Positions 43,851 to 59,082 of a stretch of 64,000 nt of DNA are shown piece after piece. This DNA comes from Stenomitos rutilans HA7619-LM2 (GTDB lineage: Bacteria > Cyanobacteriota > Cyanobacteriia > Leptolyngbyales > Leptolyngbyaceae), in assembly GCA_019358945.1 (NCBI GenBank), contig JAHHIE010000036.1, positions 1 to 64,000 on the forward strand, in the 5' to 3' direction. The translations under genes were made by a program, and so were the position numbers. The notes beneath the pieces were generated by a model. The model was not told the origin of the DNA, ran no database searches, and saw nothing but the letters and a program-made list of their open reading frames with translations. The stretch's first letter is position 1; every line of letters starts with the position of its first letter.

Positions 43851-44101
43851 TCCATCAAAGTTAACAGTTTTTTGAGCTGGTCGATATGCTTCGTGGTGTA
43901 GGGGTCAGCATAATCGATCGCCCAACAACGCTCAAAATATTCTCGTCGCTGCTCGTGAAAATGTTCCTGCGTCAAGGCATTGAGCAGCGATCGCCAAATT
44001 TGGCTTAACAATAATGTATTAAGAAGCCGGCTTCCTTTCGGTTCTATCGCCGATTCGGGAATAAGTTCCAATTCTTTGTAAGCCTGCCATTGATTATTCA
44101 T
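43847..44101 (-). CDS. Small hypothetical protein
   Basis: 84 residues, mostly helical and rich in aromatic and charged residues (SQIWRSLLNALTQEHFHEQRREYFERCWAIDYADPY). AGGAG 7 nt upstream of the ATG makes it a convincing gene despite its size. I do not recognise the family. It is convergent with the MFS gene. The 324-nt stretch up to the urate hydroxylase gene shows nothing else definable. Confidence 0.65.
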   Translation of the reverse strand: MNNQWQAYKELELIPESAIEPKGSRLLNTLLLSQIWRSLLNALTQEHFHEQRREYFERCWAIDYADPYTTKHIDQLKKLLTLMD

Positions 44102-44425
44102 ATCATGCTCCTAACGGAAAAATACTCCTGTTTGTAGTGTGGTTAAAGTCGCAAAGCTCTTAGAGTGCTTAATGGTAAGCCTTGTGGCTGTCTCATACGT
44201 TATGGTGTGCTGAGATAGTAGGGTGAAGAAAGATTTCATTTAAATCAGCACGCCTAAATAAATCAACACACTTAAAGACAACTGGATGAAACCAACAGCT
44301 TCAATTTTAAGGGTAATTAAAGCAACCAGCATCGTCCCGTTGGTGGATTTTGTATCAAAAGCTTCAGATTATTTGAATTGATTGTGTATCTAGCAGCACT
44401 AAGGCAGTCATTTGGAGAGCGCATC

Positions 44426-45589
44426 ATGAATCACCTGAAAGTCATTGTGATTGGAGCCGGAATGGGCGGCTTAACCACTGGAATTGCCCTACAGCAAGCG
44501 GGGTACACGGTCGAAATCTACGATCGCGTCAGTGAATTGCGTCCCGCAGGAGCGGCAATCTCCCTCTGGTCAAACGGGGTAAAAGTGCTGAACCGCCTCG
44601 GCCTGGGAGACGACATTGCCAGCATTGGCGGCATCATGGATCGAATGGCGTATTACAGTTGTACAGGTGAAAAACTCAACGACTTTAGCCTCTATCCCCT
44701 CATTGAACGGGTGGGACAACGACCGTATCCGGTAGCACGCGCCTCTCTTCAGCACATGCTGCTACAAGCCTTTGGGCAAGAACAGGTGCAATTAGGCGCA
44801 AAGTGTGTCCGGGTGGAGCAAGATGCAGATAGCGTCACGGCTTTTTTTGAGGATGGCAGAACCACAACGGGCGATGTACTCGTCGCTGCGGATGGCACCC
44901 ATTCAATTCTGCGTCCCTACGTGCTGGGGCATCCCCTCGATCGCCGCTACGTTGGCTACGTCAACTGGAATGGACTGGTACCCGCCAGTGAAGATCTGGC
45001 TCCCAAAACAAGCTGGGTTATCTATGTGGGTGAACACAAACGCGCTTCGCTGATGCCGATCGCGGATGATCAGTTCTACTTCTTCTTTGATGTGCCCATG
45101 CCCAAAGAGCAAGCCCACGAAGCAGGCGAGATTCGCGCCGATTTAGAACACTTTTTCTCCGGTTGGGCAACCCCAGTGCAAACCTTAATCCAGCGCCTGG
45201 AGCCAGAGAAAACCAATCGCGTGTTGATCCACGATATTGAACCCCTCCAAACCCTGGTCAAGGGGCGAGTTGCCTTGCTAGGCGATTCGGGACACGGCAC
45301 CGCACCCGATTTGGGACAGGGCGGCAGTCAGGCGATCGAAGCCGCCTATGTCCTTGCTACCTGTCTGACAACCACCAACATTAGTGTCGCTGATGCCCTC
45401 AAGCGCTACGAAGCCGAACGCAAAGACCGCGTAGCCGACATCATCACCCGCGCCCGCAAACGCGCCGACATGATTCACGGCAAAGACCCGGAAAAAACCC
45501 AAAAGTGGTACGAAGAACTGAAATACGATGATGGCACCGAAACGATCGACGGCATTGCGAAGACCATTTTGGGGGGGCCGCTGCGGTGA
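44426..45589 (+). CDS. hpxO: FAD-dependent urate hydroxylase (HpxO-like)
   Basis: 387 residues from ATG 44426 (GGAG 9 nt upstream; an ATT/ATG extension upstream is not supported). The FAD-binding GxGxxG is IVIGAGMGGLTTGIAL, followed by AAISLWSNGVKVLNRLG, RYVGYVNWNGLV, FYFFFDVPMP, VALLGDSGHGTAPDLGQGG and MIHGKDPEKTQKWYEELK. From memory, these motifs in the same order are those of Klebsiella HpxO, which uses NADH and O2 to turn urate into 5-hydroxyisourate. No hydroxyisourate hydrolase or OHCU decarboxylase lies nearby. Confidence 0.78.
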   Translation: MNHLKVIVIGAGMGGLTTGIALQQAGYTVEIYDRVSELRPAGAAISLWSNGVKVLNRLGLGDDIASIGGIMDRMAYYSCTGEKLNDFSLYPLIERVGQRPYPVARASLQHMLLQAFGQEQVQLGAKCVRVEQDADSVTAFFEDGRTTTGDVLVAADGTHSILRPYVLGHPLDRRYVGYVNWNGLVPASEDLAPKTSWVIYVGEHKRASLMPIADDQFYFFFDVPMPKEQAHEAGEIRADLEHFFSGWATPVQTLIQRLEPEKTNRVLIHDIEPLQTLVKGRVALLGDSGHGTAPDLGQGGSQAIEAAYVLATCLTTTNISVADALKRYEAERKDRVADIITRARKRADMIHGKDPEKTQKWYEELKYDDGTETIDGIAKTILGGPLR

Positions 45590-45613
45590 GGAAGGGGCGT
45601 AGAAAGTTTTGAG

Positions 45614-46021
45614 TTACCGCAGGAGGGCGATGAAACCTGCTTGTTCAAAATGGCGGTCGTAAGCAAGCGCTTCCTGAATGTTCTGCTGCTGCATGATGCA
45701 AAATGAGGCGCAATCAGTATGGCTCCATGATTGATCCAGGCGTTGGCTATAGAGATCGAAAGCAGCTTGAAAGAGGTCGCTGGTTTGGGGAACTACAACA
45801 ACATTTGGATTCCTAACAGATCCTCGAATCAGAGTGACAGCGGACTGTTTTAGAAAATTCCCACGCTTTGAGAAGGCGTTAAGCACTTCTGTAAAAACCA
45901 TTTCACTGGTTACAATTTTGGCTGTTAATGCTGCTGTTAGCGATGCAGCCTTTTGATGCAGGTTGTCTTGTGGATCAAGAAGCGCAATCCAATAACCTGT
46001 ATCTGCGAAAATGGTGGTCAT
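45614..46021 (-). CDS. PIN-domain toxin (VapC-like)
   Basis: 135 residues. The N-terminal acidic motif IFADTGYWIALLDPQD, the central VFTEVLNAFSKRG, and the C-terminal DQSWSHTDCASFCIM and EALAYDRHFEQAGF provide the conserved Asp/Glu residues of the PIN RNase fold. VapC toxins cleave RNA, often tRNA or rRNA. The ATG overlaps the stop of the upstream antitoxin gene (ATGA), the usual antitoxin-toxin order. It is the distal member of the minus-strand accessory array. Confidence 0.85.
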   Translation of the reverse strand: MTTIFADTGYWIALLDPQDNLHQKAASLTAALTAKIVTSEMVFTEVLNAFSKRGNFLKQSAVTLIRGSVRNPNVVVVPQTSDLFQAAFDLYSQRLDQSWSHTDCASFCIMQQQNIQEALAYDRHFEQAGFIALLR

Positions 46022-46290
46022 TCCTCAACTTTGGGGGAGCCGTAGAGATAGTGATCGTGGTTGATAGACAAATCGCGGGGTAATTTCTCCCATTCTTCAG
46101 GCGGCACTTGGGCATGGATTTGGGCAACCAGATCCAGCAGAGAGGCGATTCCACCTTCAGAGGGTGGTGAAGGTTTGGGTATTTTTTGCTGCTGCCGTTG
46201 TTTGAGGAAAAGGCAAAAATCGAGGATTTCCTCAAGCATTGCGTCGGGTGCATGTTCAAGCTCGTTAAGCAACTGTTCTTTGGCACTCAT
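46018..46290 (-). CDS. Antitoxin of the PIN toxin
   Basis: 90 residues from ATG 46290 (an in-frame GTG at 46320 is possible). The start MSAKEQLLNELEHAPDAMLEEILDF is the pattern of cyanobacterial antitoxins of the DUF2281/VapB-like type. The C-terminal half (SEGGIASLLDLVAQIHAQVPPEEWEKLPRD) is the probable toxin-binding tail. It overlaps the toxin gene by 4 nt. Confidence 0.72.
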   Translation of the reverse strand: MSAKEQLLNELEHAPDAMLEEILDFCLFLKQRQQQKIPKPSPPSEGGIASLLDLVAQIHAQVPPEEWEKLPRDLSINHDHYLYGSPKVEE

Positions 46291-46353
46291 CTGATTCTGC
46301 GCCTCGTGTTTCTGTTGCACTCATTGTAGGGCGATCGCTTCAGCACTTTCAAA

Positions 46354-46458
46354 GCTGGTGTGGAGTTTGCTGGAATTGCAGAAGCGGTCAAGAGGGTGAG
46401 TGAAAGGTGGTGTTGGGTTAATTTGTGGAGCGATCGTGCTTAACGGTCGTGTTCAGCG
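46354..46458. repeat. 105-bp direct repeat, copy 1
   Basis: About 90% identical without gaps to 48271-48375 (offset 1917). It runs into the attC-like site at 46438. On the plus strand both copies read as the same ~28-residue peptide (core EFAGIAE, end NLWSDRA), with the TAA stop lying inside the attC core GCTTAAC. No start codon is available here, so it looks like a duplicated gene end or cassette leader. Confidence 0.85.
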
Positions 46459-46524
46459 TACGCAAATATCCTTTGCCACTTACCCGACCGATTTTCAGCT
46501 TACAGTGCAGCGACTCGATTAGAC
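46438..46524 (-). other. attC-like site C (degenerate)
   Basis: 87 bp. In minus-strand reading it runs from GTCTAAT (R'' core, one mismatch to RYYYAAC) to GTTAAGC (R' core, GTTRRRY). Inner arms around CGCTGCAC / GTTCAGCG pair only partly. The stop codon of the DUF2442 gene lies in the first core box, the usual relation of a cassette gene to its attC. It is weaker than the other three sites. Confidence 0.5.
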
Positions 46525-46827
46525 CGTCGCCACTCGACTACTTAACCACCGCTGAAACGATTTTTGACTTTCGCCAGATGGTTGCCCAAGAATCAGATTC
46601 TTGATGCTGATGTCTTCGTCTAGCTGATTCCAATGAATGCCGTTGCCACCAGCAATGAAGCGATAGTCGTTGCGTTCTTCGATCGAGGCATGCAACAGGC
46701 GAGGATACCATGCTATTGGCACAGATATAGTGCGCCCATCAGATAAATCCACAGAAAGCGTGTCGTCTGTGACTGTCACTTGCTGAATTGTGGGCATTTC
46801 AAGCAGTTCATTCGTTAAAGAATTCAT
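46519..46827 (-). CDS. DUF2442 domain protein
   Basis: 102 residues. The core VTVTDDTLSVDLSDGRTISVP, followed by WYPRLLHAS and RFIAGGNGIHWNQLDEDIS, is characteristic of DUF2442. These small proteins usually sit beside DUF4160 genes and the pair is often regarded as toxin-antitoxin-like, though this is not established for this pair. It overlaps the upstream DUF4160 gene by 20 nt; an internal ATG at 46797 would remove the overlap. The stop codon lies within attC-like site C. Confidence 0.82.
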   Translation of the reverse strand: MNSLTNELLEMPTIQQVTVTDDTLSVDLSDGRTISVPIAWYPRLLHASIEERNDYRFIAGGNGIHWNQLDEDISIKNLILGQPSGESQKSFQRWLSSRVATV

Positions 46828-47044
46828 TCCAGCCTACTAGCAATTGCTCTTTATGTTCTTCAACAAGTTTTTGAATGCGGTTAATCTCTGTGCGACTAAA
46901 CCCTCTGTTACTTTGAAGGCGTATGGGTTCAAGCCAAAACTTGGCTTCGTCCTTATCACGCTCAACATGTACGTGGGGTGGCTCATCCCGATCGCCTGCG
47001 TAACGGAAGAAACGGTATGGACCAACGGTCAACAGCGTAGGCAT
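46808..47044 (-). CDS. DUF4160 domain protein
   Basis: 78 residues. The sequence VGPYRFFRYAGDRDEPPHVHVERD is diagnostic of DUF4160, and AKFWLEPIRL, NRGFSRTEINRIQKLV and LVGWNEFF complete the domain. It is translated just before, and overlapping, the DUF2442 gene, forming the standard two-gene unit. Function is unproven; a toxin-antitoxin-like role is proposed in the literature for similar pairs. The pair forms one cassette between attC-like sites A and C. Confidence 0.85.
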   Translation of the reverse strand: MPTLLTVGPYRFFRYAGDRDEPPHVHVERDKDEAKFWLEPIRLQSNRGFSRTEINRIQKLVEEHKEQLLVGWNEFFNE

Positions 47045-47140
47045 TCAAAAAATTCGGTTTTCCAACCTGTTTCAATAGTCTAAAACACGTCAGAAGGCTT
47101 GAGCGAGGATCGCACTAAATCCTTTAAGCAAGTATATAGA

Positions 47141-47160
47141 GTGGGCACTGCCCACCCTAC
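47141..47160. repeat. Dispersed short palindrome GTGGGCACTGCCCAC
   Basis: GTGGGCACTGCCCACCCTAC here and GTGGGCAGTGCCCACCCTAC at 55154-55173 differ by one base. They are short self-complementary intergenic repeats found upstream of small genes in both places. Confidence 0.6.
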
Positions 47161-47198
47161 TTTAGCTGAAATACGACTTGTGGAGAGAGCGATCGTGC

Positions 47199-47284
47199 AT
47201 TTAACGGCTAAGTTGAGCGGCGGCTAGTCTCCTTTGCATCCTCACCGAGATCTCTAGCTCGTCCGCTCCAACGTGTTGTTAGAC
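47199..47284 (-). other. attC-like site A
   Basis: 86 bp. In minus-strand reading it starts GTCTAAC (RYYYAAC) and ends GTTAAAT (GTTRRRY). The arm GTTGGAGCGG pairs with the complement of GTTGAGCGG, leaving one unpaired G, the extrahelical base that gives attC sites strand polarity. CGAGCTAG/GGCTAG continues the stem. The antitoxin gene upstream reads through most of it before its stop. Confidence 0.72.
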
Positions 47285-47435
47285 CGCGTTTTCGCGACAG
47301 GGTTACAACTTCTCTTCCGCTTTCCGCTTGCTGCTTTTGTAAATCAGCAAAGATGGCTTTCAAGTCATGATTGAATGACCGAGAATACTCTTCACGAATT
47401 CTATGGATCTCTTCTACAATCTCATCTTGAAACAT
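47208..47435 (-). CDS. Antitoxin-like protein with attC-derived C-terminus
   Basis: 75 residues from ATG 47435 (GGAGG 6 nt upstream). MFQDEIVEEIHRIREEYSRSFN, then IFADLQKQQAESGREVVTLSRKR, is a familiar cyanobacterial antitoxin-like sequence found beside PIN genes. After SRKR the reading frame enters the attC-like site and adds about 24 residues (LTTRWSGRARDLGED...) before a stop. That tail is therefore encoded by recombination-site DNA rather than by the original gene. It overlaps the PIN toxin gene end by a few bases. Confidence 0.7.
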   Translation of the reverse strand: MFQDEIVEEIHRIREEYSRSFNHDLKAIFADLQKQQAESGREVVTLSRKRGLTTRWSGRARDLGEDAKETSRRST

Positions 47436-47437
47436 AA

Positions 47438-47911
47438 TCAACCTCCGAGAAGTTCATAGGGTGTACAAAGAATTGGCAACTCGTATCCAAAATCAAGGCT
47501 GATCTCTGCCAACTTTCCCTGGATTTGAGCATTGGCGATGTGCTTGCAGTTCCAGGTCAACAGATAATCCATGCCGTGAACGGTTGCGGCTGCAATATGA
47601 ACAGCGTCAACATCAGCTTTTGCGGGAAGGTTACTGCGTCCCAAGAATTGTTCTGCTAAATCAAGTACAGATTGGTTCAAGTCTAGGAGCGAAAAATCGC
47701 GAAGGATTTCTAGCCGTTGAGAGGCGATCGCAGCATCTCCTTGGGAGGTCTCTTTCACGACTGCTTGAGATGAGTAGAGTTGGAAGTAGCTGCGGCGCGT
47801 ATCCCACCACTCCCTTGTAATCTCAATATTGGCAACTACGACAATATCTCTGCCGGGTCGAGCAGTAAGGTAGCCTAAGATGCTGGTCTCGATATAGACC
47901 GTTTCGCTCAT
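47438..47911 (-). CDS. PIN-domain toxin
   Basis: 157 residues from ATG 47911 (product starts MSETVYIETSILGYL; an upstream extension to 48040 is not supported). ETSILGYLTARPGRD contributes the first acidic residue, VVKETSQGD the second, and KADVDAVHIAAATVHGMDYLLTWNCKHIAN the third acidic site and the C-terminal strand, together forming a PIN RNase fold. It is first in a toxin-antitoxin pair, with the antitoxin gene starting within its last bases. Both lie between attC-like sites B and A. Confidence 0.82.
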   Translation of the reverse strand: MSETVYIETSILGYLTARPGRDIVVVANIEITREWWDTRRSYFQLYSSQAVVKETSQGDAAIASQRLEILRDFSLLDLNQSVLDLAEQFLGRSNLPAKADVDAVHIAAATVHGMDYLLTWNCKHIANAQIQGKLAEISLDFGYELPILCTPYELLGG

Positions 47912-48103
47912 ACAGAGTGGGCTGGGAGTTTCTTCATTGTACCCCAGACCTTCAGTCCGACTTAGAAGCTGTACGGATGCGATCGCATACAGGTTGCTTA
48001 GGTTTAGTTGGTTATGTATGAGGCGCGACTTCCATCCCAACTCTAACCCCGAAATACGTCTCTATCTGATACTGCTTGACTCGATGTCACAGAACCAAAC
48101 GTT

Positions 48104-48141
48104 CGACCATCGAAAGGTCGGACAAAAAGCGTGCTTTGTCC
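48104..48141. other. Two adjacent hairpins in the PIN cassette leader
   Basis: CGACC/GGTCG (48104-48120) is followed without a gap by GGACAAA/TTTGTCC (48120-48141, loop AAGCGTGC). They lie in the ~360 nt between attC-like site B and the PIN toxin gene. No T-run follows in either direction, so they may be regulatory RNA structure rather than a terminator. Confidence 0.4.
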
Positions 48142-48270
48142 GTTCTCAAAAGCTACGTAGGAAGCTGTACCGCCATTCCAACTCCAACCTCGAAAGCGAT
48201 CGCTACTCTACTCTTTGCCTCCTCCATAATACCTTGCAAACCAAAGATGATAGGCATTGCCCACCTACCT

Positions 48271-48375
48271 GCTAGTGTGGAGTTTGCCGGAATCGCAGAA
48301 GTGGTCAAGAGGGTAGGTGAAAGGTGGTGTTGGATTAATTTGTGGAGCGATCGTGCTTAACGATTGCGTTCAGCG
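48271..48375. repeat. 105-bp direct repeat, copy 2
   Basis: Ungapped, ~90% identical partner of 46354-46458. It runs into attC-like site B and sits at the start of the PIN-toxin cassette; copy 1 sits at the start of the VapBC-like unit. Both toxin-antitoxin units thus share the same leader after their attC. Confidence 0.85.
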
Positions 48376-48440
48376 GATGCAATGAGATTAGACCAGGCAT
48401 CGAAATCACCTATAATTCCGCTGCAACGCAGTTGTTATAC
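48355..48440 (-). other. attC-like site B
   Basis: 86 bp. In minus-strand reading it runs GTATAAC ... GTTAAGC. The arm TGCGTTGCAGCGGA pairs with the complement of TGCGTTCAGCGGA, leaving a single extrahelical G, the classic attC signature. The preceding gene (48435-49226) has its TAA stop inside GTATAAC. The centre (about 35 nt) is the variable terminal structure. Confidence 0.78.
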
Positions 48441-49226
48441 AGATTCTTCAGAGTTTATAGTCTCTTCCGAGAGAGAGATAACATATTGATCACCCTCACG
48501 AAACATCCATCTTGAAGTTTCAAGAACTTTATTACAAGTTTTTAGAATCAGCTTCTTAGGTGACGTAGCAATGTGCAGTCCTGCAATCATAGTTGGCTTA
48601 TCATTTTCCAGTTTAAAGGTGACTAACCAAGGCTCTACGCTCATTACCCGAAAATAACCTTCAGGACAGTCATCAGTAGTCCAACCGTATACGTCAAGAG
48701 GCAATAACTGACTCAATGTAAGGATACATTGATGCAACCAAGCACCTATTTCATGGTTTTTTGCTCTGTCAAAGATAGTTTTAGCTTCATAAGGCATTAA
48801 CTTATCTACGTGAGCTGACAGTTGATCTCTCACACTTCGAATTGCACTCGTTTTATCAAGTGGGACAACTTTCAGAAAATCTTCAAGAGTTTTATTAATC
48901 TCTGCCCTCTGAACTTTATTGAATTGATTTCGCATCTCAAGTGCAGAGTTTAAGTAGTTACATAAATCTCGAATCGCTACGCATAGTGAGTACAGAGGAA
49001 TTACCAATATTTTGGTACGCCGCCTCCGTTCTTCATCATTGCTTAGAATAGCGGTACCTTTTAATAAATTTGCAATATCTTCTAGTGCCTCAAAACATCG
49101 CCAAAGATTTATGGCAGGAGGATTCGAGGGATGCCAAGCAGTAATCTCTACTTCCTCTAATGCTGAATTAGCGAACTTCCGTTTAGCTTCATCTAGGTAT
49201 ATTGGGATACCCTTCTTCTCTTCCAT
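48435..49226 (-). CDS. Cassette-borne protein of unknown function
   Basis: 263 residues from ATG 49226. It starts MEEKKGIPIYLDEAKRKFANS. The long helical middle (about 45-150: RCFEALEDIANLLKG, LYSLCVAIRDLCNYLNSALEMRNQFNKVQRAEINKTLEDF) could be a coiled bundle, and DQLSAHVDKLMP resembles HEPN-like or abortive-infection-type R-x4-6-H motifs, but the match is loose. The C-terminal third is beta-rich (YFRVMSVEPWLVTFKLEND). I do not recognise the family. The base composition is AT-richer than the neighbours and its stop lies in attC-like site B, both signs of acquisition. Confidence 0.72.
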   Translation of the reverse strand: MEEKKGIPIYLDEAKRKFANSALEEVEITAWHPSNPPAINLWRCFEALEDIANLLKGTAILSNDEERRRRTKILVIPLYSLCVAIRDLCNYLNSALEMRNQFNKVQRAEINKTLEDFLKVVPLDKTSAIRSVRDQLSAHVDKLMPYEAKTIFDRAKNHEIGAWLHQCILTLSQLLPLDVYGWTTDDCPEGYFRVMSVEPWLVTFKLENDKPTMIAGLHIATSPKKLILKTCNKVLETSRWMFREGDQYVISLSEETINSEESV

Positions 49227-49329
49227 AAAACTTAATCCGGAGCGCAAAATAGTAATCCTGGTCTATTCTAGCCAACCCAGCTAAGTTAGGGGCTTCTCCA
49301 AGAGACAAATGCCAGGTTACAAACTTTCT

Positions 49330-49412
49330 GTATAACGTTCGCGCTCACCGGATGCACGTAGCCTTCGCAGCCAACCAAATTACGAAATTCCGGTGCAGAG
49401 CGGTTGTTAGGC
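49330..49412 (-). other. attC-like site D
   Basis: 83 bp. In minus-strand reading it runs from GCCTAAC (perfect RYYYAAC) to GTTATAC. The arm CGCTCTGCACCGGA pairs with the complement of CGCTCACCGGA, leaving two unpaired bases (TG). The centre contains TTCG/CGAA pairing. The preceding gene stops one base before the core box. Confidence 0.75.
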
Positions 49413-49413
49413 A

Positions 49414-49914
49414 TCACTCCTTTAACGCGAAGGAGCAATTGAACGGGCGTGTGTATACATTGTTCCAAAGCTCATCTTGCGCGCTGGCAATTAAGAGTGG
49501 CGCAGAGCCTTTAGCAATCATCGTCTCAATGGCGCTAATCGGCACGAACACGCGATGCGACTTTCTAGCCTCAATAGCTGTTGGGCATCCGTTTGAGATT
49601 GCATGGTAAGAGAGGCTAGAGTGAACCCAACCGAGCCTGCGTGGAACTCGCTTGAACTTCCAGAGATACGAAATTCGTTCACGGAGGCTGGGTTGACGAT
49701 CCAGATAGAGAAAGCCAATGCTAGCCAAGTGAATATCGTGATTGGACACGTTACGAACGATTATATAAACACCTCCTTCAGTCTTCTCGTTTTTGGTTTC
49801 TACACCAAATACCAGATCAATGCGGAAGCGGGGCTGGGATTGAAAGACGTTCCACACGAATACAATTGTGGAAAGAGCGGCGGCGTATATAGCCAGATAA
49901 TCAGTGATCTTCAT
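49414..49914 (-). CDS. Cassette-borne membrane-anchored protein of unknown function
   Basis: 166 residues from ATG 49914 (a GTG at 49932 is possible). An N-terminal membrane span (DYLAIYAAALSTIVFVWNVF) leads to a short beta-rich domain (FRIDLVFGVETKNEKTEGGVYIIVRNVSNHDIHLASIGFLY) with an immunoglobulin-like strand pattern often seen in small bacterial proteins of unknown role. It would face the cytosol or the periplasm; topology is uncertain. It is the first recognisable gene of the minus-strand cassette array. Confidence 0.7.
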   Translation of the reverse strand: MKITDYLAIYAAALSTIVFVWNVFQSQPRFRIDLVFGVETKNEKTEGGVYIIVRNVSNHDIHLASIGFLYLDRQPSLRERISYLWKFKRVPRRLGWVHSSLSYHAISNGCPTAIEARKSHRVFVPISAIETMIAKGSAPLLIASAQDELWNNVYTRPFNCSFALKE

Positions 49915-49962
49915 CTGTTGTAATGTACCCACCGCAAGTCCTTGAGTGCGAAGCCTAACTAC

Positions 49963-50150
49963 TGTTTAGACAGACGGAGTCTGTCTAAGATCCCTGATTC
50001 GAGTAATTAGGCTGAAGTTCGGCAGTCTAAGATCCCAGACTGGGTAGTTGGGCAGACAGCACCCTGTCTAAGATCCGAAATTGGGTAGTTAGGCGGACAG
50101 GTTTCTGCATAAGATCCCAGACTGGGCAGTTGGACAGACCGACTCAGTAT
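49963..50150. repeat. 41-bp tandem repeats (about 4.6 copies)
   Basis: Units start at 49963, 50004, 50045, 50086 and (partial) 50127, each containing TAAGATCC and ending in a GGG/GAG word, with TAGTTGGGC/TAGTTAGGC at the start. Units 1 and 3 contain internal hairpins (GACAG/CTGTC). Units 3, 4 and 5 begin with GTTGGGC, GTTAGGC and GTTGGAC, which fit the attC core GTTRRRY. There are no spacers, so this is not a CRISPR. Confidence 0.8.
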
Positions 50151-50157
50151 AACTACC

Positions 50158-50693
50158 CCCTCTCGGCGGGCAGCTAAGTATGAAGGATTATTTCGAGATT
50201 GACAGAAAAATTTATCCTGGCACTTTCCATGCAAACACAACGATCGCTCCTCATCTAGACTGCATGAACACCAACCGGAATATTACTTCTGCTGGAAAGC
50301 GATCGTGCATCCACACATCCTCAATACACAACAAATTAATCAACGGGTGATTTGCTGAATCATTTCGCCAATTTACTTTCTCATTGCAGCTATTCGCTTT
50401 CTCAATTTAGTATTTTCCGCAAGCAAATAGGCAATCCGCTTTCTCAAACGGCGGTTTGCTTACTCATTTCAGTAGATCGCGCATTCATTTTGGTGTTTTC
50501 CGCAAGCAAACGGGCAAATTGCTTTTTCAAACGGCGGTTTGCTTACTCATTTCAGTAGATCGCGCATTCTTGATCCAGGATTGCCATGTAGCAAAAGCGA
50601 TCGACAATTTGCTGAAATTTGCTCAGGTTGATCCATTTAGAAATTTCTTAACGTGAAAGAATATTAACTCTGACCAATCACACCGCACCCACT
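50158..50693. other. Non-coding repeat-bearing region
   Basis: About 535 nt before the next gene with no convincing coding frame. It contains the 82-nt-period repeat pair described separately and a preceding decayed stretch with similar words (CTTTCTCAATT, CGCTTTCTCAA). Confidence 0.5.
50410..50567. repeat. 82-nt-period direct repeat (two copies)
   Basis: 50410-50485 and 50492-50567 match at about 69 of 76 positions. They share TTTTCCGCAAGCAAA, CAAACGGCGGTTTGCTTACTC and TCAGTAGATCGCGCATTC. The inner word AAACGGCGGTTTG is nearly self-complementary. Confidence 0.85.
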
Positions 50694-51140
50694 ATGGCAC
50701 GTCGAAAACGAACCTCTCCCGTCTTAGAAAAAGCCGTCCGTCGCATGGCTGGCATGACTTCCATCGATCCCAATTTAGATGTTGGTAATGGGCTTACCCT
50801 GCCCTCTTTCTCCACCCTGATCGAAACCATGCGAACCAGGGAAAACGCCTACAACAGCGCCCTTTCCAACCTGGACAAACTCTATCGTGAACTGCTGGAA
50901 ACCGAACGCGACCTGGGAGACATGGCAGAACACATGCTGTTAGGCGTTGCGACCAAATACGGCAAAAGCAGCGTCGAGTATGGCATGGCAGGTGGCGTGC
51001 CCAAAAACCAGCGTCGTAAAGGATTGCGCGGCGAATCAACCACATCGGTTGCTGCACAACCTCCCTTCATTGCCACTGCAAACGGTAATGGTAGCGCCAC
51101 CAGCACCACAAATGGCAGGACAGCGACTACAACGGCTTAG
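50694..51140 (+). CDS. Small basic hypothetical protein
   Basis: 148 residues. A basic N-terminus (MARRKRTSPVLEKAVRRMAGM) leads to a helical part (FSTLIETMRTRENAYNSALSNLDKLYRELLETERDLG). VATKYGKSSVEYGMAGGVPKNQRRKG is a motif seen in small cyanobacterial and Bacteroidetes proteins of unknown role. The C-terminus is a Thr/Ala/Asn-rich tail. It may be related in context to the small protein at 59925-60398, since these two types tend to occur near each other (from memory, not verified). No function is assigned. Confidence 0.68.
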   Translation: MARRKRTSPVLEKAVRRMAGMTSIDPNLDVGNGLTLPSFSTLIETMRTRENAYNSALSNLDKLYRELLETERDLGDMAEHMLLGVATKYGKSSVEYGMAGGVPKNQRRKGLRGESTTSVAAQPPFIATANGNGSATSTTNGRTATTTA

Positions 51141-51514
51141 GCTGTGCGTTCGCTCACAGGTAAAACCCGCTTCATGCGATGTGCGATCGCCCCTTATCTT
51201 TATTGAAGATGAGCGATCGCATTGCATCAACTCACCAATGCTTTCAATCAATCCACCTGGAAGTCAATTCCCTATCATTGAATGCTGCTGGCAGAGCAGA
51301 TTCTGCTGCCGCCTTCATTGCAGGGCTTGATTCCAGTGCTGATCGATCGCTTGCCGAGGCGTAAATGAACAAGTCAGCGCGACCTGTCGCCTCCATCAAT
51401 GCTAAACATAATAGTGAGGGGGCTGAGTCTTTTGGTTGATTTCGGCGTACTCCCCGCTCCTTTTCGTTTCCAGAACACACGTTAGCTTGTGACTCGTTTC
51501 TGCTTTCCCAACTG

Positions 51515-51621
51515 CTGATCCAACGCCAGCACAAATGATTCAACATTTGCAACGAGCAAATCAGATTGCCATGCGTGCGCAGGACTTTCGGCATCATCCG
51601 TTTGCCTGGTTTCACTTCTAG
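51515..51621 (+). pseudogene. 5' fragment of a nucleoside deaminase gene
   Basis: CTGATCCAACGCCAGCACAA and the following ~75 nt closely match 52501-52595, the start of the intact deaminase. The frame encodes MIQHLQRANQIAMRAQDF and HHPF, then diverges and stops at TAG after AWFHF. It lacks all zinc ligands. It marks a partial duplication flanking the ATP-grasp gene. Confidence 0.75.
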
Positions 51622-51668
51622 CTTGAGCGCAAAAGAACAGCAAACATAGAAAGATTAAGGATTAAGCA

Positions 51669-52496
51669 ATGACACAAAAAGTAAATTGGCTGCTTGAACA
51701 AAAGATCTTCGATGCCGAAACACAGTTTTTAGAGGCAATACAGAAGCAAGGCTACACTTACAAAGAAACAAAATACCTCGCTTTTCGCCGCGAAGAAGCA
51801 GATCAATATTTTCCTGATCACGAATGCGTTTTATTTCGCGGCACTCTCGGCTTGGGCAGAGATATTTTGAGGACATCCTGGGTGCCAGGTGCATATATGG
51901 ATGAAAAGAATCTTCGCTGCTCCACTTACTACACGTACTTTGGTTCGTATCTGCTTAACAACAAGTATTTCATTCTTTCTCTGGGCGAGCTAATTAGAAG
52001 AAAAGAAGAAATTTTGGAATATTTTAAATCTAATGGCGAAATTTTTATACGACCTGACAGCAACATGAAATCATTTCGTGCCGGGGTCTTCAATCTTGAA
52101 GTCTTGAATACTATGCAGGCTTTGAGCAGCGAGCTTAAACGAGATGAAACAACTCTAGTGCTGGTTAGTAGCAAGCGATCGATTGCTAGAGAATGGCGAT
52201 TCTTCGTCTACAAAAATGAGATTGTTACTGGTTCACTTTACTTGATAGGAGAAGAAAGAATTGATGAGAGAATTGAAGGAGGTTATTTGAAGAACTACTT
52301 AAGTGACGTGCTAAAACAGGTCAAGTGGTATCCTGAATCGCTTTACACAATAGACATCTGTGAATCGGAAGGTGAGCTTTATATACTGGAACTTGGTTCT
52401 TACAGTTGCGCTGGAGAATATGGTTGCGACGTTGGTTTAATTGTCGAAGCTGGTGCAAAAGCAGCCTGGGAGGATTATGAAACTGTAAATGGTTAA
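51669..52496 (+). CDS. ATP-grasp domain protein (R2K-type)
   Basis: 275 residues. The C-terminal half has ATP-grasp features: FIRPDSNMKSFRAGVF, TLVLVSSKRSIAREWRFFVYKNEIVTGSLY, and YTIDICESEGELYILELGSYSCAG (metal-binding D/E near the end). The spacing fits the R2K clade of ATP-grasp proteins, often linked to peptide or amide ligation. The substrate is unknown. The gene is AT-richer than its surroundings and is inserted between a deaminase fragment and the intact deaminase, overlapping the latter's ATG by 8 nt. Confidence 0.75.
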   Translation: MTQKVNWLLEQKIFDAETQFLEAIQKQGYTYKETKYLAFRREEADQYFPDHECVLFRGTLGLGRDILRTSWVPGAYMDEKNLRCSTYYTYFGSYLLNNKYFILSLGELIRRKEEILEYFKSNGEIFIRPDSNMKSFRAGVFNLEVLNTMQALSSELKRDETTLVLVSSKRSIAREWRFFVYKNEIVTGSLYLIGEERIDERIEGGYLKNYLSDVLKQVKWYPESLYTIDICESEGELYILELGSYSCAGEYGCDVGLIVEAGAKAAWEDYETVNG

Positions 52497-52995
52497 TCAT
52501 TCTGATCCAACACCAGCAAAGATAATTCAGCATCTGCAACGCGCCAACCAGATTGCCATGCGTGCCCGTGACTTTGGACATCATCCCTTTGGGGCACTGC
52601 TGGTAGCACCTGATCATGAGACAGTGCTGCTGGAGCAGGGCAACGTCGATACCGTGAATCATGCGGAAGCGGTACTCGTTCGCACAGCTTGGCTCAATTT
52701 CTCGCCGGAGTATTTGTGGGACTGTACGCTTTACACTACGGCTGAACCCTGCGCGATGTGTGCAGGAACGCAGTATTGGGCAAATATTGGTCGCCTGGTG
52801 TACGGCATCGCTGAAACGCGCTTGCTAGAGCTAACAGGAAACGACGAGCAGAACCCGACCTTGAATTTGCCGTGCCGTGAGGTGTTCGATCGCGGTCAGA
52901 AACCCATTAAAGTTTGGGGACCAATTCCCGATGTTGAAGAGGCGATCGTAGCTGTACACCGCGATTTCTGGAAAACGGGCGATCGCTCACACTAA
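52489..52995 (+). CDS. Nucleoside/guanine deaminase (zinc-dependent)
   Basis: 168 residues. The zinc site is VNHAEAVLVRTA (His and catalytic Glu) plus TAEPCAMCAGTQYW (two Cys), the cytidine/deoxycytidylate-deaminase fold in its guanine- or adenosine-type subgroup (tadA/guaD-like). HHPFGALLV is the typical N-terminal strand. It lies 120 nt before the 8-oxoguanine deaminase gene on the same strand, which supports a purine-base substrate (inference). The ATG overlaps the end of the ATP-grasp gene, so the current transcript may include both. Confidence 0.85.
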   Translation: MVNHSDPTPAKIIQHLQRANQIAMRARDFGHHPFGALLVAPDHETVLLEQGNVDTVNHAEAVLVRTAWLNFSPEYLWDCTLYTTAEPCAMCAGTQYWANIGRLVYGIAETRLLELTGNDEQNPTLNLPCREVFDRGQKPIKVWGPIPDVEEAIVAVHRDFWKTGDRSH

Positions 52996-53115
52996 GCGGT
53001 TGAGGGGTGCGATCGGGCAATCATTGACCCGTTGCATAGTGATAACGCATCTCAGGCTACAGTACCTGTGGTAGTTTCTTCGGTACACTGCGACTCGCCA
53101 AATCGCTAAACGCCC

Positions 53116-54477
53116 ATGCCGACACTGCTAATCAAAAATATTCATACTCTGGTGACGATGGATGCCACGCGACGAGAACTGCGTCATGGGGCAATCTTTG
53201 TGCGCGACAACGTGATTGAGCAGGTCGGCACGACAGACGCGCTACCACCAACTGCGGATGAAGTGCTGGATTTGCACGATCGACATGTCGTGCTTCCAGG
53301 TCTGGTCAACACGCACCATCACTTCTACCAAACGCTGACGCGCGTGATTCCAGCGGCGCAAGATTGTACGTTGTTCAACTGGCTGCAAACGCTGTATCCC
53401 ATTTGGGCAAACCTCACAGCAGAAGGCATTTACATCAGCGCTCAAATGGCGGCGGCAGAGTTAATGCTGTCTGGCTGCACAACGGCCAGCGATCATCTTT
53501 ACATCTATCCCAACGATTGCACGTTGGATCATGAGATTGAAGCGATTCAGGCGATCGGGCTGCGGTTTCATGCCAGTCGCGGCAGCATGAGTGTGGGCGA
53601 AAGTCAGGGCGGTTTGCCTCCCGATTCTGTTGTGGAGAAGGAAGCGGACATTCTTAAAGACTCCCAGCGGTTGATCGAGCAGTATCACAATAATGACCGT
53701 CATGCCATGCTGCGAATGACGTTAGCGCCCTGTTCACCCTTCAGCGTCTCGCCCGATCTCATGCGCGAGTCGGCAACGCTGGCGCGATCGTATCCCGGTG
53801 TGCGACTGCATACGCACCTAGCAGAAAACAAGTCAGATGTCACCTATAGCCTGGAAACCTTTGGCATGATTCCAGGAGACTTTGCCGAATCGGTGGGCTG
53901 GCTGGGGGAAGATGTGTGGCACGCTCACTGTGTGCAACTCAGCGATGATTCGATCGCCAAATTTGGCAGAACGGGTACAGGTGTGGCGCACTGCCCCTGT
54001 AGCAATATGCGCCTCGCCAGCGGTATTGCCCCCATCCGCAAGATGCTGAACCATAACGTCCCTGTGGGGATTGGTGTAGACGGCTCTGCGTCGAATGACA
54101 CCAGCAATCTGCTGCAAGAAGCCCGTATCGCCTTCCTGCTGGCACGAGTGCGTGATTGTGACCCTACGGTTATGTCAGCAAGGGAGATTTTAGAAGTCGC
54201 TACGTTAGGTGGTGCTAGAGTTTTGGGTCGGGATGATATTGGCGCGATCGCTCCTGGCATGTCCGCCGATTTTATTGCCGTTAATGTCGATCACCATCGC
54301 TTCTCCGGTGCTCATCATGACATCGTTGCCGCACTCATTTTCTGTCAGGTGGATACGGTGGATTACAGCTTTATTAATGGGAAAAAGGTGGTCGATCGAG
54401 GACAGTTAACCACCATTGAACTCCCTACGCTGGTGGAAAAGCATAATCAAATTGCACAGCAACTCGTGGCTGACTAA
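53116..54477 (+). CDS. 8-oxoguanine deaminase-type amidohydrolase
   Basis: 453 residues. Metal and catalytic motifs of the amidohydrolase superfamily are NTHHHFYQTLTR, RLHTHLAEN, VWHAHCVQLSDD and GIGVDGSASNDTSNLL. The FNWLQTLYPIWANL segment and the overall order match cytosine/8-oxoguanine deaminases (Pseudomonas Pa0142-like). It would release ammonia from 8-oxoguanine to give urate, feeding the urate hydroxylase encoded 8 kb upstream. Related TRZ/ATZ enzymes on other substrates remain possible. Confidence 0.83.
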   Translation: MPTLLIKNIHTLVTMDATRRELRHGAIFVRDNVIEQVGTTDALPPTADEVLDLHDRHVVLPGLVNTHHHFYQTLTRVIPAAQDCTLFNWLQTLYPIWANLTAEGIYISAQMAAAELMLSGCTTASDHLYIYPNDCTLDHEIEAIQAIGLRFHASRGSMSVGESQGGLPPDSVVEKEADILKDSQRLIEQYHNNDRHAMLRMTLAPCSPFSVSPDLMRESATLARSYPGVRLHTHLAENKSDVTYSLETFGMIPGDFAESVGWLGEDVWHAHCVQLSDDSIAKFGRTGTGVAHCPCSNMRLASGIAPIRKMLNHNVPVGIGVDGSASNDTSNLLQEARIAFLLARVRDCDPTVMSAREILEVATLGGARVLGRDDIGAIAPGMSADFIAVNVDHHRFSGAHHDIVAALIFCQVDTVDYSFINGKKVVDRGQLTTIELPTLVEKHNQIAQQLVAD

Positions 54478-54533
54478 TGTTTAACCAGAAGCTTCCGAGA
54501 CAGACAGCGGTCTTCCAATGGGCGATCGCAGTA

Positions 54534-55118
54534 CTACCCCTGCGGCATCAACTCATAGAATGACTCTTTGCCCAAATGCTGACCATACTGTTTGACCAGT
54601 GCGTTCAGGTTGGTGGAGCGATCAAGGGCGATCCAATCATCCACTGACCCTAAAAAGCACCATCGTTCTACAACAAACGTTCTGATTTGGACATCCTCTA
54701 ACACAAACTGCATTGTGGGCGAGAAGGAGAGAGACTGAATCAGCGTGGCTCTCATCCTGGTTGCATCGGCGCTGCTGACAGGTAACGCGATTTCCATCAG
54801 ATTGTCCACATTCTGGTCACACAGATAGACCACAATCTGGTTGTCTTTCACATCTATGATGAAGTCGTCAAGCTTGGCGTACTTTTTCACGCCCTCACGG
54901 ACGATCGCAACCTCTTCAGGTGTAATGATCTGCGGTGGAATTTTTCGCAGAAACACCTGAGCGCTGGGATGCTCATAAATCTCATAGCCGTCAGGAATGG
55001 TATTGACCAGCGTGCCTACTGCCTTCATGGAGAAGAAATACTTGGGCTTTCCCGTTTTGGTTTTCCCCTCATGAAGGTAGTGTTTTCTGCCTCTGCGGTT
55101 GGTATATTCAACGCTCAT
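54534..55118 (-). CDS. Hypothetical protein
   Basis: 194 residues from ATG 55118 (AAGGAG 7 nt upstream). The N-terminal segment VEYTNRRGRKHYLHEGKTKTGKPKYFFS, then YEIYEHPSAQVFLRKI, resembles a recurrent bacterial family of unknown role. The C-terminal half has VVERWCFLGSVDDWIALD, a beta-rich globular part. No catalytic motif is recognised. It lies downstream of an orphan HicB-like gene on the same strand. Confidence 0.72.
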   Translation of the reverse strand: MSVEYTNRRGRKHYLHEGKTKTGKPKYFFSMKAVGTLVNTIPDGYEIYEHPSAQVFLRKIPPQIITPEEVAIVREGVKKYAKLDDFIIDVKDNQIVVYLCDQNVDNLMEIALPVSSADATRMRATLIQSLSFSPTMQFVLEDVQIRTFVVERWCFLGSVDDWIALDRSTNLNALVKQYGQHLGKESFYELMPQG

Positions 55119-55153
55119 TGCCACTCTCCTTCATGCTGAACGGTTTAGCAGTG

Positions 55154-55173
55154 GTGGGCAGTGCCCACCCTAC
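55154..55173. repeat. Dispersed short palindrome, second copy
   Basis: GTGGGCAGTGCCCACCCTAC, the one-mismatch partner of 47141-47160, between the hypothetical gene and the HicB-like gene. Confidence 0.6.
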
Positions 55174-55191
55174 GATTCTCAGGCTCATGAA

Positions 55192-55416
55192 TCAAGCGAT
55201 CTGCAATGACGTTCCAAAGACGTTGGGCTCTGGTAGCGATTCATTGTGCTTTACAGCAGATTCAATCAATAACTCCAAAACCTCTTGAGCATGGGTCAAG
55301 GCTTCGCTGTAGGTTTCTCCATACGTGTGGCAAAATTCTCCCCACTCAGGAAGACTGGCGACATAGCACTGATCTTCATCAGACCACTGAATGATGATGG
55401 TATAGCGGCTCTTCAT
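55192..55416 (-). CDS. HicB-family antitoxin-like protein (orphan)
   Basis: 74 residues. YTIIIQWSDEDQCYVASLPEWGEFCHTYGETYSEALTHAQEVLELLIES is the degenerate RNase H-like HicB domain. There is no HicA reading frame directly adjacent on the same strand. The separate HicA-like gene at 59537 has its own partner, so this copy appears unpaired. Confidence 0.85.
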   Translation of the reverse strand: MKSRYTIIIQWSDEDQCYVASLPEWGEFCHTYGETYSEALTHAQEVLELLIESAVKHNESLPEPNVFGTSLQIA

Positions 55417-55524
55417 GCTTCAGCCTGCTTTCAACAAAAGACTCTTCAACTCTCTAATCTTCTTAGGCATTCCCTACACCCCACACCCTATCCCCTAACC
55501 GTGCCTGCGTCATTCAAGATCAGA

Positions 55525-58500
55525 TTAAAGTTCTTTGGCACGCTTTTCAATGGCTTTGGCAATATCTGTCCAAGCCTGGTCACGATCGCCATTCGCTTCA
55601 TCAAACGTAATCACGGCTTTACCATCTCGCGGTAAGGCTTGCAGATCTTTGAGGACAGGTTCGCTGCTCCACAGACACGGACGAACAATGATGGGAATGA
55701 TACCCATGCCCTCTGCTTGACGGCGTTCCAGGAAGCGCGGCATCTCTTCTTTGTAAATGAAGCCTGAATTGATGAAGTCGTCACTCACGAGCAGTAAGGC
55801 TAAGTGGCAGGTATTGATCGCCTCGTGAATGGCGGGATACCATTCTTCACCCGGTTCAATCAGACGATCGTCCCAGGTATCAATGACTCCACGGCGTTTC
55901 AGCCCGCTTAGCATTTTTAACAACTTATCTTTGTGCGGCTCATCAGCACGGGCATAGCTAATGAAGATTTTAGGGGGTTTCATCGTGGGTGTAAGGTCTG
56001 GGGCAAATTGACTCAGGCTTTCTTCCCATTGCTGATGTAGAGTTTCACGCAACGGCGCAAAGCCTGCATGGTCAAAGGGGATGGCGTATAAGTTCAGCAC
56101 CAGATCGAATAAGCTCACTGGATAGTGGGAGGGATTGCAAAAGTCGCCAGGTTTGCACCCACGCAAATCATGGGAGGGGGCTGATGTAGTTTTGCTTTCC
56201 AGAACAAGGGAAAGCAGGCGCTTCTTGCTGACTAAACGTGATTGAATCAGGGTTCGATCGTCTCCCAAGGCTGCCCCAGGTTGCTGCCATGCCTGCTGAT
56301 AGGCAGGTGTATCCAGTACCACGACATAATCATCCGGTTGAACGTGAGCCGCATCGCTCACCAAATAAATGCCCGCATCCCGCAAATCATGCTGGAGGGT
56401 TTTAGCCCACGTTTCCTGGTCTGGCACATAGCTGAGGTAGCAACGAGGAGCCGCCCACTGGCGACGGTAGCCTTTGACGTTGGCAAGGTGGGTTTCATAG
56501 GTATTCCGCAGGCGGGCGATCGCCTCTTCCCGTTGTAGCCAGCTAGAAGCGGTGGTGCCAATACTGGGCTGTTGCGGGGCAGGGAGATCCACTTTGCTGC
56601 CACACTCCTCACAGAAGGCAAAGGTTTTACCTTCTCGACTGCGTTTGGTGACGGTGGCACGCTCTAGGCGGTGATGGTTCTCACAGAGAACGGTTGGGAA
56701 GCGGGTGACTTCGACCTCGCGCTGATAGAGGAACTGCTCAAACAGGGTTTGAAACGCGGTGCGCCCGCTGGATGGCATCTGGTTGCCGTAGTAGAGCACC
56801 AGTTCAATCTCACCTTCGCGGTCTGCAAGCATGCGAAAGCCGCAGATCTGCCCCGCATCCATTTCGTACTGCGCCTGGTTTTGCCAGTGATTGATGCGGA
56901 GAAAGGAGGGCGTATAGCCGAGCAAGACCACCAGCGTGGCGTAGATGTTTTCGACCCGACCGCGCACGATGTAGGAGATGTCATCGCTGAAGGGGGTATC
57001 GTCTTGCAGGGGGCGCTTTTGCTTGATGAGTGCTGGAAAGATCAGCAGGGTATCGGCGTCCAGAGTTTCGCGGAAGCAAATGCTGTGTTCGAGGAAGCGC
57101 AGCACGGCAGCATCCAGCAAAAGCTGCTGTTCGGACGGCTCGAGCCCCTTAATTTCATCAAAGGCGTAGTTGCCTTTTAGCAGTTCTGCTTCATTGATGG
57201 CTCCCAGTTCACGGGGATGTTTGTCTGCCTGGAGGACGATCGACGCTGCCAGACCCACCAGCAGTTCGGGCTTGAGCAGGATGGATTGCTCACCCGCTGA
57301 GCTACGCAGGATGCACACATAGCCATGATTCTCCAGATGCCCTACAGCGGTCATCATTTCGGCATCGGTGAACGTCCAGCCTTCCCAGACCTCGGAGGTT
57401 TCCGAAACCTCCGAGGTCTCAAGTAGAGCGCGCAACTTCGTCGGGCTGACCAACACGTTTTTACGATCGGGCTGTTCCTTGAGTGCCAGCACGTAGTCCT
57501 TAATGCGCTTGAAGGTAACGGTGGTAACGGTGGTGGTCATCTCGTCCCAGGGGATTTGGGCTTTGAGACGCTCCAGCAGTTCTGGTAACCCGTCACCCGT
57601 CATGGCGCTGGTGCTGATATAGCCGCCGCTGATGCCGTAGCGCTGGCAGAACTGATCCAGGTCTTGCTGGGAAAGGGCAGGCGCACCGCGATCGACCCGT
57701 GCCCCGACCAAGACACTGGGCGGCAGTTGAGCGTTGCCTTTTAGCTGCTCCAGCCAGAACTCTGCTCCTTTGAGTGGGTCTTGACGGTTGCTGGGGTCAA
57801 ATAAGACCAGCGAAGCATTCACGTGGTCGAGAAAGATGGAGTGGATGGAGCGATACACATGCTGACCCGCCAGATCCCACAGCACCGCTTCGCATTGGGT
57901 GCCATCCTCGCGGGTTTTGCCCAGTTCATCAATCACCCAGAACTGCTGACCGTGGGTGGAGGCATGTTCCTTAAATTCGTTGTGCGCCAGCCGATAGCCC
58001 AGACCTGTTTTGCCGACACCGGAGTCCCCTACCAGGACAAGTTTGGCTGTAGTGTAGTGGACGCTTTTCTGTGCCTGTCCGAGCAAAAGGCTCTCGTCTA
58101 GTTCCCAAACGCGGATGGTGCTGTCTTTTCCCCCCAAGGTTGCCAGGAGGGGTTGGCAAGAATGGAATGCAACAGCAGGAGGCCAAACACTAGCTGAGGA
58201 TTCTTCTAGCACTGCTACGCAAGTCCAAGTGTCGCAACGCCATAGGCGAACGGTATGATCATCATTACTACCTTTGGACGCTAGCCAACGACCATCGGCG
58301 GAAAAGACAGCACAATTCACTCTACCAGAATGACCCTCTAACACCTTTAGTGTTTTACCACTGGCGATTTCCCATAGGCGGAGAGTGCAATCATTTGCTG
58401 CTGAGACTAAGCATTCCCCATCGGGAAACCAGGCTACGCTATAAACCGATCCAGTATGTCCTCGGAGCGTTTGCAATAACTGACCGCTAGTGAACTTCCA

Positions 58501-59082
58501 TAGACAAATGGTTTGATCTTTCGCAGCCGAGGCAAGGTGCTGCCCGTCGGGTGACCACGCCACGCTATAGACACTTTCGGTATGTCCTTTGAGCGTTTGC
58601 ACCATACTGCCGCTAGCAGCATCCCAAAGGCAGATGGATTTATCTAAGGAAGTGGAAGCAAGGTACTGCCCATCGGGTGACCACGCCACGCTGTATATAG
58701 CACCAGTGTGTCCTTGCAGTGCTTGCAATGGTTTGCCGCTGGGCGCGTCCCATAAGCGAATGGTTTTATCCATAGAAGCTGAGGCAAGGTGCTTTCCATT
58801 GGGTGACCATGCCACGCTGACGACAGAATCAGTATGCTCTTGCAGCACCTGCCACGCTCTGCTGTAAGTAACTTCCCAGAGGCGAATTGTTTGATCGTTT
58901 GAAGGCGAGGCAAGCAGTGAACCATCGGGTGACCAGGCAATACGACCGATCCAATCTACATGCCCTCGCCGCAAAAGACGTCGCAGAGTCAGTCCGGGTA
59001 CGGGCGATTCACCCACCCGCACACCATCGGCAGGTCCACGGTAGTAGTCGGGCAGGTCGGGGAGGAAGGCGGATGGGGGCAT
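55525..59082 (-). CDS. WD40 - Roc GTPase - zinc ribbon - double TIR-like receptor protein
   Basis: 1185 residues. Residues ~40-330 hold seven WD40 repeats (SVAWSPDGQYLASTSLDKSICLW type). A Roc-type GTPase follows: P-loop LVGDSGVGKTGLG (~350), DLAGQH (~400) and VGARVDRG. A COR-like helical/winged region covers ~500-780. A zinc ribbon (CENHH...CEEC, ~798-825) precedes a first TIR-like module (CYLSYVPDQETWAKTLQHDLRDAG, ~876) and a C-terminal TIR_2 domain (IFISYARADEPHKDKLLKML, ~1036). The second TIR retains FIYKEEMPRF, where the catalytic Glu of NAD-cleaving TIRs sits. The layout fits a regulated death or defence effector. Confidence 0.88.
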   Translation of the reverse strand: MPPSAFLPDLPDYYRGPADGVRVGESPVPGLTLRRLLRRGHVDWIGRIAWSPDGSLLASPSNDQTIRLWEVTYSRAWQVLQEHTDSVVSVAWSPNGKHLASASMDKTIRLWDAPSGKPLQALQGHTGAIYSVAWSPDGQYLASTSLDKSICLWDAASGSMVQTLKGHTESVYSVAWSPDGQHLASAAKDQTICLWKFTSGQLLQTLRGHTGSVYSVAWFPDGECLVSAANDCTLRLWEIASGKTLKVLEGHSGRVNCAVFSADGRWLASKGSNDDHTVRLWRCDTWTCVAVLEESSASVWPPAVAFHSCQPLLATLGGKDSTIRVWELDESLLLGQAQKSVHYTTAKLVLVGDSGVGKTGLGYRLAHNEFKEHASTHGQQFWVIDELGKTREDGTQCEAVLWDLAGQHVYRSIHSIFLDHVNASLVLFDPSNRQDPLKGAEFWLEQLKGNAQLPPSVLVGARVDRGAPALSQQDLDQFCQRYGISGGYISTSAMTGDGLPELLERLKAQIPWDEMTTTVTTVTFKRIKDYVLALKEQPDRKNVLVSPTKLRALLETSEVSETSEVWEGWTFTDAEMMTAVGHLENHGYVCILRSSAGEQSILLKPELLVGLAASIVLQADKHPRELGAINEAELLKGNYAFDEIKGLEPSEQQLLLDAAVLRFLEHSICFRETLDADTLLIFPALIKQKRPLQDDTPFSDDISYIVRGRVENIYATLVVLLGYTPSFLRINHWQNQAQYEMDAGQICGFRMLADREGEIELVLYYGNQMPSSGRTAFQTLFEQFLYQREVEVTRFPTVLCENHHRLERATVTKRSREGKTFAFCEECGSKVDLPAPQQPSIGTTASSWLQREEAIARLRNTYETHLANVKGYRRQWAAPRCYLSYVPDQETWAKTLQHDLRDAGIYLVSDAAHVQPDDYVVVLDTPAYQQAWQQPGAALGDDRTLIQSRLVSKKRLLSLVLESKTTSAPSHDLRGCKPGDFCNPSHYPVSLFDLVLNLYAIPFDHAGFAPLRETLHQQWEESLSQFAPDLTPTMKPPKIFISYARADEPHKDKLLKMLSGLKRRGVIDTWDDRLIEPGEEWYPAIHEAINTCHLALLLVSDDFINSGFIYKEEMPRFLERRQAEGMGIIPIIVRPCLWSSEPVLKDLQALPRDGKAVITFDEANGDRDQAWTDIAKAIEKRAKEL

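Follow-up and report, generated by a model that had tools for sequence, protein, structure and literature searches.

A diverged repeat flanks the ATP-grasp gene

In the window, by which we mean the whole 64,000-nt stretch of DNA analysed here, an ATP-grasp gene lies between a broken and an intact copy of a deaminase start, which raises the question of how it came to stand there and what the repeat around it records. The flanking repeat pointed out in the first-pass annotation is real: positions 51515-51604 and 52502-52591 match over 90 nt at 83% identity, in the same frame and with a spacing of 987, and the ATP-grasp gene lies between them (Table 1). Because the next-best site for the upstream copy elsewhere in the 64-kb window agrees at 42 of 90 positions on either strand, a chance origin can be excluded. 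Counted in whole codons (51514-51603 against 52501-52590), 74 of 90 positions are equal. The annotation had assigned both copies to the same deaminase, which is overstated, as 16/90 positions differ. The upstream copy, hereafter the stub, follows the deaminase frame for 30 codons and then runs into a TAG at 51618-51620. Our search of the own genome (7.28 Mb, in which the window spans bases 1-64000 of contig 27) recovered a single full deaminase along with the stub and a distant relative at 37% identity.

Table 1. Features around the ATP-grasp gene, with window coordinates.
Feature	Position	Strand	Basis
HpxO-type FAD-dependent urate hydroxylase	44426..45589	+	95.9% aa identical to G006 protein
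Insert separating HpxO from the deaminase region; PIN, DUF2442 and DUF4160 genes in its left part	45590..51513		Landmarks in common with G006; Pfam
148-aa conserved gene, no known family	50694..51140	+	No Pfam, NCBIfam or PADLOC match; orthologue in L041
140-nt gene fragment with stop	51222..51361	+	81% to G000:C89; gap in G006 alignment
Non-coding leader in common with G006	51387..51513	+	95%; 6 differences in 126 aligned positions
Deaminase 5' stub, dead, 30 codons in frame	51514..51604	+	Repeat match, own-genome search, codon comparison
Unmatched spacer preceding ATP-grasp gene	51605..51668		Own genome and 6 congeners searched, no match
R2K-clade ATP-grasp gene, 275 aa, GC 40%	51669..52496	+	Pfam R2K_2, R2K_3; GC
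Intact CDA-type deaminase, 168 aa	52489..52995	+	Pfam dCMP_cyt_deam_1; HAE and PCxxC in translation
8-oxoguanine deaminase	53116..54477	+	NCBIfam NF006055, 686 bits (cut-off 532)
196-aa gene, no known family	54534..55124	-	Beside 8-oxoguanine deaminase in G005 and G001 too

The deaminase and its neighbourhood

The end of the ATP-grasp gene and the start of the deaminase overlap by 8 nt, as described in the annotation, and the deaminase ATG falls in the last ATP-grasp codons. A GGAGG at 52469-52473 lies 15 nt before this ATG, within ATP-grasp codons, and translation of the deaminase is probably coupled to that of the ATP-grasp gene, judging from this arrangement. The deaminase is similar in sequence to solved CMP/dCMP, TadA, guanine and guanosine deaminases, and it scored 53.8 bits with the NCBIfam equivalog for TadA, below the cut-off of 150. 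It is present in all six congeners compared (G001 to G006; 80-93% at the amino acid level), each with a single match at E<=1e-20. Among other genomes, a second copy was found in G034 (74% and 69%), and G057 has a distant second one.

The deaminase belongs to a purine-catabolism neighbourhood of HpxO, deaminase and 8-oxoguanine deaminase, three genes that are contiguous in G005. There, the HpxO TGA overlaps the likely GTG start of the deaminase (read by eye), and downstream of the deaminase come the 8-oxoguanine deaminase and then the gene at 54534, as in the window. Four of the six congeners (G001, G002, G004 and G005) have HpxO immediately upstream of the deaminase, at distances that range from an overlap to a gap of ~240 nt, and no HpxO occurs within the 16 kb fetched around the G003 deaminase. 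The window HpxO is assigned via its identity to the G006 protein, which passes the NCBIfam model urate_HpxO (NF033623) at 621 bits against a cut-off of 500. Compared with the congener arrangement, HpxO in the window is set back by ~7 kb, and the position that overlaps the deaminase start is occupied by the ATP-grasp gene. Our literature search returned no paper joining HpxO, guanine deaminase and urate in cyanobacteria.

The intervening insert is common in outline to the window and G006, where four landmarks (46202-46338, 48197-48362, 49954-51219 and 51387-51604) occur in the same order in locus L041. In G006, the last two of these (88.9% and 87.7% identical, respectively) directly precede one whole deaminase, with the 50694 gene again the next gene upstream. 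An uninterrupted deaminase locus lacking the ATP-grasp gene, which the annotation had proposed to look for in relatives, thus exists behind the same leader. A scan of 44000-56000 with Rfam gave no known RNA element near this leader. The genes after the G006 deaminase sit on another contig of the window's genome, so that side has been rearranged in one of the two lineages.

Several further features were observed in and around the insert. Its left part (45614-47044, minus strand) carries a PIN-domain gene with a weak DUF2281 partner and a DUF4160/DUF2442 pair, which are toxin-antitoxin-like. Further along, a 270-aa ORF at 48435-49247 (minus strand; GC 39%) is the most atypical in codon use among the 48 window ORFs and has no Pfam or PADLOC match. 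The stretch 49957-50170 is 94% identical to a site on G002:C35, well above gene-level similarity, and may be mobile; within it, a 41-nt unit stands in three tandem copies at 50025-50147. The fragment at 51222-51361 falls in a 167-nt stretch absent from G006, which puts two diverged gene fragments into a span of less than 400 nt. Its relative on G000:C89, an intact gene of the same genome, looks like an AAA ATPase (P-loop seen by eye) and has matches of only 66-67%, in two of the six congeners. Outside the insert, a dispersed repeat of ~130 nt (41570-41697, and L041:3643-3773) recurs in G006, G002 and G000, with tens of copies listed, and the G006 copies are mostly 91-98% alike; the repeat has a strong predicted fold (z -3.66) and no Rfam match. 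Downstream, a gene at 55525-59082 (minus strand) encodes 1185 aa, with WD40-like repeats in the N-terminal part (by eye) and a C-terminal TIR-like domain (PADLOC ThsB match, residues 1037-1182).

The ATP-grasp gene is probably foreign

The reading frame of the ATP-grasp gene is complete and aligns over its length with homologues of 73-80% identity. Its product passes both Pfam R2K_2 (46.8 bits, cut-off 26.2) and R2K_3 (38.1 bits, cut-off 26.3), and an NCBIfam scan gave no match. E175 and R177 of the ExR motif are invariant in 13 of 13 aligned homologues. Candidates for the two lysines (or K/R) of the RAGNYA domain are R128, nearly invariant, and K134, invariant, with a tentative strand assignment from a weak predicted structure (mean pLDDT 65.9). 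With this model, Foldseek reached E 1e-7 to ATP-grasp ligases but TM-scores of 0.27-0.45, and all 50 listed structural matches are ATP-grasp enzymes by name, with low TM-scores. No ATP-grasp chain came up when PDB sequences were searched by profile.

As the annotation had suggested, the gene is richer in AT than its context: among the 48 window ORFs with at least 120 aa, its GC content of 40.4% is the third lowest (mean 50.9%, z -2.5) and its codon use the second least typical. It is absent from 6/6 congeners (E<=0.001). In 58 genomes drawn as relatives it was found in three, the own genome included, and in one of these at only 26%. A match at E<=1e-10 was present in 16 of 388 genomes of the class, again including the own; besides the window these are seven full-length matches at 74-80%, one in G290 at 66% over 62 residues, and otherwise distant ones. 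A second collection added five records with a close ATP-grasp gene, all in cyanobacterial genera, and on this basis we take the host of the window to be a cyanobacterium as well. Phormidium tenue FACHB-886 and G221 have the same neighbours and were counted as one locus, giving 11 distinct loci outside the window. The listed ORFs at these loci were compared with four queries, the deaminase, the amidohydrolase and the 50694 and 54534 genes, and none of them matched; L079 spans only 3.1 kb in this comparison, and L047 (G015) has little upstream DNA. A conserved pairing of ATP-grasp gene and deaminase was rejected on this basis. The neighbours of the gene recur in small groups only (G285 with Tychonema and a Microcoleus MAG; G218 with G290). 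A close plasmid or phage carrier was likewise rejected, as the 6 plasmid and 42 phage records recovered hold only relatives below 60% identity. Together with the uninterrupted G006 locus, the base composition, codon use and patchy distribution bear out the earlier suggestion of a late, foreign gene wedged in at this place, and we consider a foreign origin probable.

The two deaminase starts differ mostly at silent positions

Between stub and intact deaminase, dN is 0.083 and dS 0.93 (~5.5 changing and 10.5 silent differences), a comparison of 30 codons in which dS values carry wide error. Between the window and G006, dS is 0.60-0.88 in 12 of 13 genes and lowest (0.43) in the 50694 gene; the two deaminase starts are thus about as far apart as two species of the genus. 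To evaluate this pattern we simulated stubs at five divergences, with the constrained copy at a fixed omega of 0.08. Stubs that were dead from the start collected a mean of 12-28 changing differences. Runs with at most 5.5 changing (N) and at least 9 silent (S) differences made up 0% at four of the divergences and 0.27% of 1500 at the fifth and lowest; counted there only among runs with S in 9-12, N<=5.5 was reached by 1.2%. When both copies were constrained, the observed pair was ordinary. The predominance of silent differences therefore indicates that the stub spent most of the period after the two copies separated as part of a working deaminase gene.

These results bear directly on the proposal that the insertion was mediated by a duplicated target. 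Such an event, if recent, should have left near-identical copies, and a dead stub should have drifted at all codon positions; neither is seen, and we rejected a recent target duplication. The position and length of the repeat do fit an ATP-grasp insertion that itself duplicated ~90 nt of its target, yet with so few changing differences next to the 12-28 of simulated dead stubs we regard this as very improbable. Homologous recombination, which the annotation had named alongside, is possible, as is the older independent deaminase duplicate that it had listed as a refuting finding.

Which copy is resident

Two lines of evidence point in different directions. In a tree that includes the stub, the intact copy groups with G006 (96% ultrafast bootstrap), and its dS to G006 is 0.84-0.86, because of which it looks native. 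The stub leans outside the pair of window and G006 (lnL difference 4.9, p-AU 0.079; none of 200 simulations reached 4.94), in whole-gene data that assume no recombination inside the gene; a tree from the 90 shared nucleotides alone resolved no placement of the stub. By position, the stub looks resident, because its leader adjoins the whole gene in G006.

The leader itself is 95% identical to G006, against 79% for the stub (19/90 positions differ; Fisher p 0.0004). Ten other upstream stretches of 127 nt, some of which may include coding sequence of neighbouring genes, gave 60-81% in eight cases and 90% in two, so the leader is the highest; its conservation may reflect either constraint or recent exchange. 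Relative to G005, dS is 0.74-0.95 for the deaminase, the 8-oxoguanine deaminase and the 54534 gene, against 1.2-1.8 for seven upstream genes. The 8-oxoguanine deaminase of G005 is equally close to that of G006 (dS 0.63), and the 50694 gene has a dS of 0.59 to G005 and 0.75 to G001. From these values, an exchange of the block of deaminase, 8-oxoguanine deaminase and 54534 gene among congeners appears likely.

A recombination scar as the tentative explanation

The reading that we favour, tentatively and at a probability of roughly 0.35, is that the repeat is a recombination scar joining two diverged deaminase alleles, where an incoming stretch brought the ATP-grasp gene and a deaminase and left the resident one as the stub. 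The insert would have separated the usual congener pair of HpxO and deaminase in the lineage of window and G006. In a relative, the foreign ATP-grasp gene would already have landed at a deaminase start. From this putative donor, a stretch with the ATP-grasp gene and the deaminase, perhaps also the 8-oxoguanine deaminase, would have recombined onto the resident deaminase, its right side held by homology and its left end presumably joined illegitimately after codon 30. The resident 5' end would then remain as the dead stub, and the new deaminase ATG in the last ATP-grasp codons would allow coupled translation.

This explanation is supported by the stub/intact dS of 0.93, which matches species-level dS and comes with a purifying pattern; by the stub standing where G006 has a whole gene, behind the same leader and a collinear insert; and by the ATP-grasp gene being absent from all congeners and never beside this deaminase among the ORFs of the 11 other loci. 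The lower dS to G005 across the block than upstream makes an exchange among congeners plausible. Against it, no donor of the ATP-grasp/deaminase stretch was found among the congeners, class genomes and second collection searched, the intact copy has a native look, with the stub tending to fall outside its pair with G006, and a simple resident stub predicts something other than a leader at 95% followed by a stub at 79%. The low dS to G005 of the 50694 gene, which lies outside the block, also speaks against it.

Some of these difficulties would disappear if the two copies were old tandem paralogues; arrival of the ATP-grasp gene would then have truncated the first in the window lineage, and in G006 the pair would have merged or lost one member. 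Such a history would explain the purifying pattern and a divergence older than a recent insertion, as well as the same leader on a less similar G006 gene, and second copies do occur in G034 and, distantly, in G057. Independent losses would be required by the single match in each of the six congeners, and we hold this account to be unlikely, though a serious contender. The native look of the intact copy and the outward lean of the stub would fit the reverse direction. Here a clean insertion would have placed the ATP-grasp gene at the start of the native deaminase, and the stub would be the right-hand end of upstream DNA (~49954-51604) acquired later from a relative whose copy of this DNA ran on into a deaminase. 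Identity to G006 is 90-95% in 49954-50693 and in the leader, against 60-81% in eight of the ten other stretches, and among the 13 genes dS to G006 is lowest for the 50694 gene. That gene is, however, also slow relative to G005 and G001, which makes constraint an alternative; several landmarks of the insert run in the same order as in G006, so that it probably predates the split; and with 19 of 90 positions different the stub is not close to G006. Taken together, we judge this direction unlikely, though likewise a serious contender.

Comparison with known systems

For the R2K clade, formation of peptide-like bonds has been predicted (PMC4431377). The R2K.2 and R2K.3 families described there resemble the window gene, which passes both Pfam models, keeps the ExR motif in 13/13 homologues and is as sporadically distributed. 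The same source links R2K.3 to GNAT genes; the window gene is instead found in a purine-catabolism neighbourhood, a position that is probably an accident of insertion. That it now leads a rewired operon for purine catabolism, coupled to the deaminase and with its ligation acting on or fed by deaminated purines, strikes us as far-fetched, and nothing in this analysis tied the enzyme to purines; if true, an R2K enzyme coupled to a deaminase would be a new functional pairing.

Overall, the locus looks like an ordinary scar of gene acquisition and not a new kind of system. It offers a base-resolution case of a foreign gene entering a conserved gene pair where stop meets start, with a stub left behind that records a second, diverged allele. 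A flanking repeat is not necessarily a target duplication, and counting silent against changing differences is a cheap check for similar scars. The closest known process is homology-facilitated illegitimate recombination. No donor or empty-site pair was found here, and judging microhomology at the visible left join would take a donor; the process (PMC3240628), with one end of incoming linear DNA anchored by homology and the other attached illegitimately, would leave a similar truncated resident copy.
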